This document shows positions 19,192 to 28,027 of a DNA stretch of 64,000 nucleotides, in pieces. The translations under genes were made by a program, and so were the position numbers. Position 1 is the first letter of the stretch; each line of letters begins with the position of its first letter. Under the pieces are notes generated by a model. It was not told the DNA's origin. It did not search any database and saw nothing but the letters and a program-made list of their open reading frames with translations. The stretch spans positions 124,001 to 188,000 of the forward strand of contig DYFK01000002.1 in assembly GCA_020725265.1 (NCBI GenBank), in the 5' to 3' direction. This DNA comes from Hydrogenophilus sp. (GTDB lineage: Bacteria > Pseudomonadota > Gammaproteobacteria > Burkholderiales > Thiobacillaceae).

Positions 19192-19893
19192 ATGTCCGAT
19201 TCCGCCGGCAAGCTCGACATCACCACCTTTCTCCTGTCCGCCATCCACGACATGAAGAATTCGCTGGGCGTGATGTCCTCGTACCTCGAGGAAGCGCTCG
19301 CCCTCGACGGCGCCGACGCGCCCGCCCGGACGCGAACCGCGCGGGCCCTCTACGAAGCGCAGCGGGTCAACGACCATTTGATCCAGCTCCTGGCCCTGTA
19401 CAAGATCGATCAGGCATTCTACCCGTTCGATCCCGAGCACCATTGCCTGGCCGATCTCACCGAGGAAGCGCTGGCGCGGGTCGCGGTGCTGGCGGAATCG
19501 GCCGGCATCGAGCTGGATGGCGAATGTCCGGACACGGCATACGGCTGGTTCGACTACGAACTGGTGTTCGGCGTCGTCGTCCAGGCGTTGCGCAACGCAC
19601 TGCATTACGCGCGCGCGCGGGTCCGCCTGGAGGTCCAGAGCGTGGGCGCCGGCGTGCGCATCCTGGTCGACGACGACGGTCCCGGCTTTCCCGATTTCCT
19701 GCTCGAACACGGCAATGCCGCCCGGCTCGGCATCCATCACCAGTCCGGCGGTACCGGCCTCGGCCTCTATTTCGCCAGCGTGGTCGCCGGCCTGCACCGG
19801 GGCGGCGGCGACAACCGCGCCGCCAGCGGCGCCATCCGCCTGGAAAACGGCGGCTCGCTCGGCGGCGGGCGCTTCATCCTGGAACTGCCGTGA
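19192..19893 (+). CDS. Small cytoplasmic sensor histidine kinase (module 1)
   Basis: 233 residues without membrane segment or sensor domain. The phosphorylation H-box is HDMKNSLG (His near residue 19), then an N-box (ALRNALHYA), and the ATP-binding G boxes DDDGPGFPD and [10 protein letters not shown]. It should autophosphorylate and pass phosphate to the REC-TPR regulator encoded next, whose GTG start overlaps its stop (GTGA). With no sensor it probably gets its signal from a partner. It is a clear paralogue in architecture of the protein at 27356-28027. The kinase, not a phosphatase, role is inferred. Confidence 0.85.
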   Translation: MSDSAGKLDITTFLLSAIHDMKNSLGVMSSYLEEALALDGADAPARTRTARALYEAQRVNDHLIQLLALYKIDQAFYPFDPEHHCLADLTEEALARVAVLAESAGIELDGECPDTAYGWFDYELVFGVVVQALRNALHYARARVRLEVQSVGAGVRILVDDDGPGFPDFLLEHGNAARLGIHHQSGGTGLGLYFASVVAGLHRGGGDNRAASGAIRLENGGSLGGGRFILELP

Positions 19894-21530
19894 CGCCACG
19901 CGCGGCCTCGCCCCCGGACCTGACCAGGACCGGCATCCTCATCGTCGAGGATTTCGAAGCCATGCGCGCCATCCTCCGCGACCTGCTGGCCCGCGCCGGC
20001 GCCAGCCGGATCACCTACGCCAACGATGCCGCCGGCGCGCTGACGCTGCTCGAACGTCATCGATTCGACGTCGTCCTGTGCGATCTGCATCTCGGCCACG
20101 GCAAGAACGGCCAGCAACTGCTGGAAGAGGCGCGCCACCGGCAACTGCTGGCGCCGCACACCGTCTGGCTGATGGTGAGCGCGGAAAAGACCGCCGACAT
20201 GGTCGCCGGCACCGTCGAATCCCGGCCCGACGACTACCTGATCAAACCGATCACGGAAACCCTGCTGTTTTCCCGCCTGAAACGCCAGATAGCGAAAAAA
20301 CGCGCGTTGGCGCCGATCGAACAGGCGATGCGCGATCGCGAATATCTGCGCGCGTTGCGCCTGGTCGAGGCCGAACTGGAACAGTCCAATCCGCATGCCT
20401 GGGATCTCAAGCGCCTGCAGGCCGATCTGGCCCTGCACGCCGGCGACTACCCGCGCGCGCACGCGATCTTCGAGGAAGCCCTGAATCTGCGCGACCTGCC
20501 CTGGGCGCATCTGGGCCTGGCCAAGATCCACTTCCACGAAGGCCATCTGGACGACGCCCGACGCGAACTGCGCAAGATCACCGACGGCAACCGCGCCTAC
20601 CTGGAGGCGCATGACTGGCTGGCACGCACCCTGGTCCGCCTGGGCGAACTCGACGCCGCCCAGGACGTGCTCCTGCGCGCGCTCGACACCTCGCCACACG
20701 CGCCCACGCGCCAGGCCGAACTCGGCGAAGTCGCCTGGCATCGTGGCGATCTGGAGACCGCCACGCGCGCATTCCAGCGCGCCGTGGACCTGGCGCGGGA
20801 TACCCCGTTGCGCGCGCCGATGCCTTATCTCTGGCTGGCGCGCGTCCAGCTCGCGCGTGGCGACGCCGACGCCGCGCAAGCCACGCTGACCACGCTGGCC
20901 AGGGACATGCGCGAGGATGCCGGCGCCAGTCTGCTCGCCCAGGCCATGCGCATTCCCATCCATCTGCGCGTCGGCGAGCGCGATCGCGCCCAGGCCCTGG
21001 CCGCGCGACTTGGCGCGGATTTGCGCGCCCGTGCCCGCGCGCTACCGGCCGAGGCGGTGTTCGATCTGGCCGGCCCTCTGTTCGAACTCGGCGACCCGGC
21101 CACCGCCGGCGCCCTGCTCGGCGGCGTCGTCGGCAACAACCACGAGCATCCGGAATATCTGGAGCGCGCGCAGGAACTCTTCGCCCGTGCCGGTCTGGCC
21201 GACGAAGGCCGCGAACTGCTCGCCGGCGCCGCCCGCGCCGCCACCGAAATCATGAACCAGGGCGTACGCCTGGCCCACGAAGGCCGCCTCGACGAAGCCA
21301 TCCAGCTCACCCGCAAGGCGCGCGAACAGATGCCCAACAACGCGCGCCTGTTGCTCAACCACGCCTATCTGCTGATCGCCTGGATGGAAAAACACGGCCG
21401 CGACCTCGATCTGGCGCTGGAAACGCGCGAATGCATCGAAACCGCCCGGCGCCTGAAACCCGAGGAAAAACGCGCCGGCGAACTGCTCACCCGGCTGGAA
21501 CTGGTCGGCAACGATCTGGAGCTGGCCTAG
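19890..21530 (+). CDS. REC-TPR response regulator (module 1)
   Basis: 546 residues from GTG 19890, overlapping the kinase stop. The N-terminal receiver has ILIVEDFEAMR, phospho-Asp in VVLCDLHLGHGKNGQQLLEE, and Lys in DYLIKPIT. The rest is a helical solenoid of tetratricopeptide-like repeats (for example LRALRLVEAELEQ, PWAHLGLAKIHF, GDLETATRAFQRAV), with a C-terminal QMPNNARLLLNHAYLLI segment. There is no DNA-binding domain, so output is likely by protein binding through the TPR solenoid. It is homologous along its length to the protein at 25702-27354. Target unknown. Confidence 0.85.
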   Translation: MTPRAASPPDLTRTGILIVEDFEAMRAILRDLLARAGASRITYANDAAGALTLLERHRFDVVLCDLHLGHGKNGQQLLEEARHRQLLAPHTVWLMVSAEKTADMVAGTVESRPDDYLIKPITETLLFSRLKRQIAKKRALAPIEQAMRDREYLRALRLVEAELEQSNPHAWDLKRLQADLALHAGDYPRAHAIFEEALNLRDLPWAHLGLAKIHFHEGHLDDARRELRKITDGNRAYLEAHDWLARTLVRLGELDAAQDVLLRALDTSPHAPTRQAELGEVAWHRGDLETATRAFQRAVDLARDTPLRAPMPYLWLARVQLARGDADAAQATLTTLARDMREDAGASLLAQAMRIPIHLRVGERDRAQALAARLGADLRARARALPAEAVFDLAGPLFELGDPATAGALLGGVVGNNHEHPEYLERAQELFARAGLADEGRELLAGAARAATEIMNQGVRLAHEGRLDEAIQLTRKAREQMPNNARLLLNHAYLLIAWMEKHGRDLDLALETRECIETARRLKPEEKRAGELLTRLELVGNDLELA

Positions 21531-21538
21531 GCCAGCTC
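21519..21538. terminator. Stop-codon palindrome between convergent REC-TPR and rdgB
   Basis: A perfect 20-base palindrome (GAGCTGGCCT joined to AGGCCAGCTC) contains the TAG stop of the REC-TPR gene and overlaps the TGA of rdgB. It can form a hairpin in both transcripts. No U-run follows, so intrinsic termination is uncertain. Confidence 0.5.
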
Positions 21539-27354: not shown

Positions 27355-27355
27355 C

Positions 27356-28027
27356 ATGGACGCGCATACCCCGGAAAACGGGTCGATCGATCTGGCCGCG
27401 TTGATGGCCTCCGCCTTCCACGAGCTCAAGAACACGATCGGCCATCTGACCCTGACCCTGGACGAAGCCGCCGATCGTTGCTCGGGTTGCGACGCGGAGC
27501 TGGCCGACGCGCGTACGACCTGCCATCGGGTCTCGGATCGGCTGGTGCAGTTGTTGACGCTATACAAGAGCGATGCCGACAGCCTGCGCCTGAACGTGGA
27601 AGCGCATTCGCCGGCCGATTTCATCGCCGAGCTGGCCGCCGAGGCGACCACCCTGTGCGGCGATCGCGCGCGCATCCTGGTCGATAGCGCGCATGCGCCA
27701 CCGTTCTGGTTCTTCGATCGCTATCTGGTCGCCATCGCGCTCAACAACGCGGTTCACAACGCGCTGACCCATGGTCGCGATGAAATCCACCTGAGCGCGC
27801 GCGCCATCGATGGCGAGCCCTGGTTCGAAGTGGCGGACAACGGCCCGGGATTCCCGGATGCCATCCTGGCCACCGGCGGCCATCTGCCCGCGCGCAGCGA
27901 ACGCGGCACCGGTCTGGGCCTGTACTTCGCCCATGTCGTCGCGCGCGCGCATCACAATCATGGCAAATCCGGCGATCTCCAACTGGCCAACGCTCCCGGC
28001 GCCAGGGTGCGACTCACCTTGCCCTGA
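27356..28027 (+). CDS. Small cytoplasmic sensor histidine kinase (module 2)
   Basis: 223 residues without membrane segment or sensor domain. H-box HELKNTIG (His near residue 22), N-box [13 protein letters not shown], and G boxes [10 protein letters not shown] and [12 protein letters not shown]. It matches the layout of the kinase at 19192-19893, including the short leader before the H-box. It begins 1 base after the REC-TPR stop, so in this module the order is regulator then kinase, the reverse of module 1. The next gene is gmk, 26 bases downstream. Confidence 0.85.

Follow-up and report, generated by a model that had tools for sequence, protein, structure and literature searches.

Two sensorless histidine kinase/REC-TPR regulator pairs in a Hydrogenophilus genome and their probable link to flagella

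A stretch of 64,000 nucleotides from Hydrogenophilus sp. (GenBank assembly GCA_020725265.1, contig DYFK01000002.1, positions 124,001 to 188,000), hereafter the window, carries two two-gene modules at positions 19192-21530 and 25702-28027. Each encodes a small histidine kinase (HK) and a response regulator (RR) in which a receiver (REC) domain is followed by tetratricopeptide repeats (TPR). All four genes lie where a preliminary description, made from the DNA letters, had placed them. Judged from sequence, the pair is a widespread, little-studied proteobacterial two-component unit. We favor, with moderate confidence, a reading in which each module is a copy of this unit and modulates flagellar motility or chemotaxis through a TPR adaptor that its soluble kinase phosphorylates.

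Architecture of the two modules

The four genes are as follows, where DHp denotes the dimerization and histidine phosphotransfer part of a kinase.

19192..19893, plus strand: HK1, histidine kinase of 233 residues with DHp and ATPase parts only and an H-box (module 1)
19890..21530, plus strand: RR1, REC-TPR response regulator of 546 residues with a GTG start (module 1)
25702..27354, plus strand: RR2, REC-TPR response regulator of 550 residues (module 2)
27356..28027, plus strand: HK2, histidine kinase of 223 residues without a sensor domain, with an H-box (module 2)

The RR1 start overlaps the HK1 stop by four bases. According to Pfam, both regulators contain Response_reg over residues 16-130 followed by TPR/helical-repeat families, and no DNA-binding or enzyme domain scores above the cut-off after the receiver. 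The receivers retain the acid pair, the phospho-acceptor Asp, the T/S and the Lys. RR1 and RR2 thus combine an N-terminal receiver bearing phospho-acceptor residues with a C-terminal TPR part free of helix-turn-helix (HTH) or enzyme domains, as in the VieB-like class of regulators. HK1 and HK2 match HATPase families only; the Pfam HisKA model finds nothing in either, and neither Hpt nor CheW is among their matches. About 20 residues precede the H-box His, and no N-terminal sensor or transmembrane input domain is present.

The predicted RR2 structure (mean predicted local distance difference test, pLDDT, of 88; predicted template-modeling score, pTM, of 0.76; four-sequence alignment) consists of the receiver and continuous helical hairpins extending to residue 542. 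In a fold comparison it comes nearest to TPR superhelices, that of O-GlcNAc transferase being one example; TM-scores across the full model are only about 0.4. The solved sequence relatives nearest its receiver are CheY chains. The HK2 model, of modest quality (mean pLDDT 71), is made up of an ATPase domain and two DHp helices, lacks an input domain, and is close in fold to the cores of CpxA, HK853, and ZraS. ExxN/DxxN next to the His suggests phosphatase activity as well. With a receiver, a predicted TPR superhelix and no DNA-binding or enzyme output, the regulators probably act by binding proteins, as had been proposed at the outset.

RR1 and RR2 are 32% identical across 518 residues, and their alignment confirms that GQQLLEE, DYL[IV]KP, PWA..GLAK, GDLETA, and MPNN occupy equivalent positions. 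HK1 and HK2 share 35% identity. The source genome contains 92 Response_reg matches, yet RR1 is the sole full-length match of RR2 (E = 2e-72; the next, at 2e-13, covers the receiver part only), and HK1 is the best non-self match of HK2 (1.5e-26; next 5.7e-9). Against such a background their likeness is not due to chance, and these identities, along with the Pfam content, uphold the view of two related sensorless-kinase/REC-TPR pairs. Against a check set in the preliminary description, the regulators are not each other's close relatives: the regulator tree places them in separate old subfamilies. A recent twin duplication is ruled out by this tree and by the 32% identity, and the two modules are best described as old paralogues with separate histories.

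Distribution and history of the pairs

We searched 121 genomes, the source genome and 120 relatives, at a REC-TPR threshold of E<=1e-30. With RR2 as query, 63 genomes contain REC-TPR proteins, and RR1 finds the same 63. Outside the window there are 89 matches, of which 83 were fetched with their neighborhoods (80 loci) and six left out. A named genome collection yielded only four loci with RR2 as query, two of them full-length relatives. A small kinase accompanies 32 of 55 RR2-type regulators, invariably in the order RR-HK (32/32), and 25 of 28 RR1-type regulators, of which 24 have the kinase first (HK-RR) and one has the regulator first (RR-HK). A single branch of the kinase tree divides the two gene orders. 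On the regulator tree (85 rows, built by a quick method, with support from the Shimodaira-Hasegawa-like approximate likelihood-ratio test, SH-aLRT), the labels RR-HK, HK-RR, and no kinase require five changes (minimum 2; shuffled mean 39.7). The preliminary description was right that gene order is swapped between the modules, but the swap is a stable subfamily trait and not a local rearrangement. In a class-wide sample of 369 genomes (E<=1e-40), 46 have a REC-TPR match. Among the 29 best class-wide loci, one of which repeats an earlier locus, the kinase lies downstream (RR-HK) in 25 and no such gene is found in four; the 38 class-wide neighborhoods fetched contain a kinase in 28 cases and none in 10, two of which reach the contig end within 0.6 kb past the regulator.

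The catalytic residues are well preserved. The kinases carry the H-box His, N box, and G boxes of orthodox HisKA enzymes: the His is kept in 57 of 60 (the exceptions being one Arg, one Tyr, and one truncated row) and in 25/25 class-wide kinases, the N-box Asn in 59/60, the G1 Asp in 60/60, and the G2 TGLGL in 55-58/60 depending on position. The phospho-acceptor Asp is kept in 81 of 86 regulators, with four substitutions and one truncated row. All of the substitutions occur in regulators without a kinase (4/26 vs 0/58, p = 0.008, uncorrected for relatedness). Distance trees of regulators and kinases agree closely (Mantel r = 0.94, reached in 0/2000 permutations); since neighboring genes share ancestry anyway, this agreement shows joint inheritance, not contact.

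Several loci depart from the common pattern. L106, L125, L126, and L127 are kinase-less REC-TPR proteins in which the Asp is replaced by Glu or Ala. On an uncultured Pseudomonadales contig, the kinase beside a REC-TPR gene (L050:5181-5915) has Tyr for the H-box His and is without the usual G2 motif; from these residues it looks like a pseudokinase partner. L089, L090, and L091 show a tandem array in which an HK-RR pair is followed by a second regulator of the same type without a kinase; in L091, which was scanned, a gene with cNMP-binding and Crp-type HTH domains lies in between. In Vibrio campbellii (L184:4986-6628) the REC-TPR frame appears split in two, and no small kinase was found nearby.

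The histories of the two modules are read against their neighbors, all of which we regard as context outside the system.

17954..19177, minus strand: hemW, divergent neighbor of module 1
21537..22166, minus strand: rdgB, convergent neighbor of module 1
22882..23805, minus strand: PP2C phosphatase, adjoining the Ser/Thr kinase; judged independent of the modules
23799..24734, minus strand: Ser/Thr kinase (STK), part of an ancestral cluster; judged independent of the modules
24791..25699, plus strand: yicC, upstream of module 2 on the same strand
28054..28671, plus strand: gmk, downstream of module 2 on the same strand

Of the 22 other genomes in the genus, 17 have a close relative of RR1 (56-70% identity), and one more is found in another genus at 54%. 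The hemW gene adjoins HK1 in 16 of these 17 genus members, the seventeenth locus sitting on a 3.7-kb contig. On the other side, rdgB is present in eight of the 17 and absent from the fetched 2.8-8.9 kb in six (G002, G004, G007, G012, G013, and G018); in the remaining three, the contig or fetched piece stops within 1.6 kb. The distance from hemW to STK is 2.39-2.43 kb in genus members without RR1 (G001, G011, and G016) vs 4.6-6.1 kb in the nine module-1 genomes that have both genes on one contig. A gap of 32 bp separates the matches to hemW and rdgB in G001 (L152), which bears out the earlier claim that module 1 was inserted between these genes. RR1 falls within a clade of 19 HK-RR loci (100% SH-aLRT), and tree and gene context together indicate that module 1 has been passed down in the genus next to hemW.

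Module 2 has a different past. The gap between yicC and gmk is at most 100 bp in 71 and at most 400 bp in 83 of the 102 genomes with both genes on one contig, as against 2,357 bp in the source genome; its insertion into a conserved junction, as first described, is therefore well founded. Fifteen other members of the genus have the two genes on one contig; the gap is 5-21 bp in 14 of them and 423 bp in one, where there is no RR or HK match. Of the 18 gaps above 400 bp outside the source genome, the nine inspected contain no such match, and the source genome is the only one of those examined with module 2 between yicC and gmk. In the regulator tree, RR2 groups with proteins from G025 (54% identity) and G003 (52%) at 99% support. 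The nearest rows to HK2 in the kinase tree come from the same two genomes, though support is not strong. Their pairs lie elsewhere, beside FCSD/Rieske-CMD and M48-peptidase genes, and in G003 the yicC-gmk junction is closed and a separate RR1 is present at hemW. Other RR2-type pairs are found at many different junctions: one example adjoins uvrB and a gene for a low-molecular-weight phosphatase, and some lie beside what we take, from the N-termini, to be sucAB. The preliminary description raised the prospect that relatives might carry the modules at unrelated places. This applies to module 2, whose nearest relatives are elsewhere, and not to module 1, which stays beside hemW. From these trees and junctions, we consider that module 2 belongs to another subfamily and came into the yicC-gmk operon in the source lineage.

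It is improbable that module 2 is instead what is left of a mobile element at the 3' end of yicC, with no functional insertion into the operon. The yicC-gmk gap does carry other inserts elsewhere, two of which start with an integrase-like gene (G024 and G107), an identity assumed from the N-termini. Against a remnant stand the tight spacing (2 bp from the yicC stop to the RR2 start, 1 bp between RR2 and HK2, 26 bp from HK2 to gmk), the intact catalytic residues, a codon usage and GC content within the range of the neighbors, and the lack of any flanking direct repeat of at least 11 bases. No match was found in phage records, and a plasmid collection gave three weak matches, all on records of 1.7-4.9 Mb. 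An origin as recent foreign DNA is rejected on the neighbor-like composition, the lack of such repeats, and the phage and plasmid results. The two integrase-bearing inserts, L136 (G024) and L144 (G107), measure 7.0 and 9.4 kb, lie at the yicC 3' side, and start with similar genes, which suggests that this side of yicC is a recurrent integration site.

The preliminary description further proposed a single combined phospho-signaling locus in which STK and PP2C modify the regulators. We measured 58 of 93 STK-bearing genomes, of which 56 have STK and yicC on one contig. In all 56, STK lies within 408 bp of yicC, and 18 of these genomes lack any REC-TPR match. Since STK is near yicC even there, it belongs to an old cluster, and its presence calls for no connection with the modules. 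The composite locus is favored by physical closeness, in the source genome only, while module 2 is missing from the yicC-gmk junction in 15 other genus members and RR2-type pairs sit at the many other places described above. STK is ancestral at this site, the modules are not co-inherited at these junctions with STK and PP2C, and the proposal, which we hold to be very improbable, is abandoned.

Across the window, Rfam (gathering threshold) and tRNA scans found nothing. A promoter and terminator scan of 17900-28700 returned zero promoter matches, which is uninformative at 66% GC. Positions 540-4731, at the start of the window, encode a CheA-like protein that includes a receiver, a CheB-like protein, and one more protein with a receiver, all named from sequence with a Response_reg scan only.

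Association with flagella and a possible mechanism

Flagellin_N (PF00669), a family that may also catch the hook-associated FlgL, served as the flagellar marker. It is present in 62 of 63 genomes with REC-TPR vs 27 of 58 without (p = 1.4e-11). The association persists with one genome per family (the order-level set G073-G120; 17/17 vs 15/31, p = 2e-4), in other genera of the source's own family (23/23 vs 12/27, p = 8e-6), and in genomes of at least 2.5 Mb (54/55 vs 20/32, p = 1e-5). Flagellin also improves a model that already holds genome size (likelihood-ratio test, p = 8e-10 for all genomes and 1e-4 at the order level). Class-wide, where the REC-TPR and flagellin sets (369 genomes each) were treated as identical on the agreement of counts and handles, the marker is found in 41 of 46 genomes with REC-TPR vs 159 of 323 without (p = 1.3e-7). 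The regulator therefore co-occurs with flagella across genomes, as measured against STK as the sole control family.

One published screen and, with less weight, a few gene neighborhoods point the same way. In G229, a fliA-cheY-cheA-cheB-parA-cheW-cheW series and a 154-aa frame directly precede the pair, and the same fliA-che series, confirmed by Pfam, precedes it in G346, a flagellin-bearing member of that genus. In G008 the opposite strand carries flhA, flhF, and a fliA-like sigma gene at a distance of 1.4 kb from the pair, and one further neighborhood has a cheB relative (L101). In a motility screen of Pseudomonas syringae DC3000, PSPTO_1911, a 'Response regulator/TPR domain protein' (PC1 -0.56), and PSPTO_1912, a 'Sensor histidine kinase' (PC1 -0.54), fall into the che fitness group (PMC11813219, Table 3), which comprises 18 genes including cheY, cheA, and cheW (PMC11813219). 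The passages of that paper covered here contain no follow-up or single mutant of the pair.

These observations suggest how the unit might work. The small soluble kinase (DHp plus ATPase) would phosphorylate the CheY-like receiver of its neighbor, as the conserved catalytic residues imply. In the regulator, a superhelix of about a dozen TPR-like hairpins, predicted by Pfam and a confident model, would replace a DNA-binding or enzymatic output, and phosphorylation of the receiver would change the set of proteins that the superhelix binds. Because the kinase is without a sensor, its input would come through other proteins, probably ones that the TPR part binds or that dock onto the kinase itself. 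The process served is likely flagellar motility or chemotaxis, given the co-occurrence of REC-TPR with flagella and the mutant screen. Module 1 would descend in the genus at hemW, and module 2, from the other subfamily, would have settled inside the yicC-gmk operon in the source lineage.

Several findings weigh against a flagellar role for the pair. STK also associates with flagellin, more weakly (76/93 vs 13/28, p = 5e-4; at the order level 21/27 vs 11/21, p = 0.12), so that the link could partly reflect general signaling richness. The test counts REC-TPR with or without a kinase and so bears more on the regulator than on the pair; 23 of 55 RR2-type and three of 28 RR1-type regulators have no such kinase alongside. 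Flagellin is not sufficient, as 27 genomes have it without REC-TPR, and five class-level REC-TPR genomes are without flagellin (G128, G154, G218, G229, and G436), among them G154, a complete single-contig genome with an intact pair (527-aa regulator, 231-aa kinase). Relatives of flhA, flhF, fliA, or cheA occur in only four of 118 neighborhoods (L083, L187, L188, and L199), about the chance level by a rough estimate in which weaker receiver and ParA matches were left uncounted. The membership of PSPTO_1911/1912 in this family is inferred from annotation and adjacent numbering. As to the partnership itself, regulator and kinase share a nearest neighbor in only 39 of 59 pairs, and their covariation (mutual information with average product correction, 82 pairs) beat full shuffles but not within-clade shuffles, 26 of 40 of which reached it; the apparent REC-DHp enrichment is consequently not used as support.

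A different role is suggested by VieB of Vibrio cholerae, a REC and TPR protein that binds VieS and inhibits its autophosphorylation and phosphotransfer, modulated at the conserved Asp (PMC4352251, as far as covered here). By analogy, the REC-TPR protein might bind its own or another histidine kinase and inhibit the phosphorelay until receiver phosphorylation relieves the block, the pair tuning other systems with no pathway of its own. The abundance of kinase-less regulators agrees with this, but VieB has a large hybrid kinase as its target and VieA as a separate regulator at its side, whereas here a tiny kinase stands in a fixed two-gene arrangement; we think this alternative unlikely. A kinase that phosphorylates a motility-directed adaptor remains our preferred reading. 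More tentatively, flagellar control across Proteobacteria may have in this pair an accessory branch that has been overlooked: an adaptor, switched by phosphorylation, would relay an internal protein signal to the machinery of flagella or chemotaxis, and insulated copies of the pair would sit in housekeeping operons. The interest of the pair lies in its conserved two-gene arrangement across a large bacterial class, its sensorless kinase, and the strong link of its regulator to flagella. It becomes a testable motility hypothesis and raises the question of what controls a kinase that has no input domain.

Comparison with known systems

Rap proteins of Bacillus are TPR proteins that act on two-component systems and have no REC domain. 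None of the 50 listed fold matches of RR2 is named as a Rap chain. The CheA/CheY system resembles the window pairs in two respects: among solved structures the receiver is most closely related to CheY chains, and there is the co-occurrence with flagella. It differs in that the window kinases have HATPase matches only, with no Hpt or CheW, and the window regulators carry a long TPR superhelix.

VieB is one of the closest parallels and, in the mainly open-access literature examined, partly in excerpt, the only REC-TPR protein found with a studied mechanism. Compared by description only, it has, like RR1 and RR2, an N-terminal receiver and a TPR part with no DNA-binding domain (PMC4352251). It acts by protein binding modulated through the conserved Asp (PMC4352251, in the portion consulted), and we propose that RR1 and RR2 do likewise. 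The partners are different: VieB accompanies a large hybrid kinase and a cyclic di-GMP phosphodiesterase regulator, whereas RR1 and RR2 form a fixed pair with a sensorless kinase of 223-233 residues.

The P. syringae genes PSPTO_1911/1912 are likened to the window pairs by annotation, being a consecutively numbered REC/TPR regulator and histidine kinase. According to the parts of PMC2222644 at hand, each P. syringae genome has one VieB-like regulator, PSPTO1911 in DC3000. PSPTO1912 does not appear in the main text of that paper as far as it was covered, which would fit a kinase too short for its census. Our search of the open-access literature, with subscription journals mostly outside its scope, found no paper that treats a sensorless kinase and a REC-TPR regulator together as one system. 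The class of VieB-like REC-TPR regulators is a known one, named since at least 2007; what this analysis adds, relative to the papers examined, is the standing sensorless-kinase partner.

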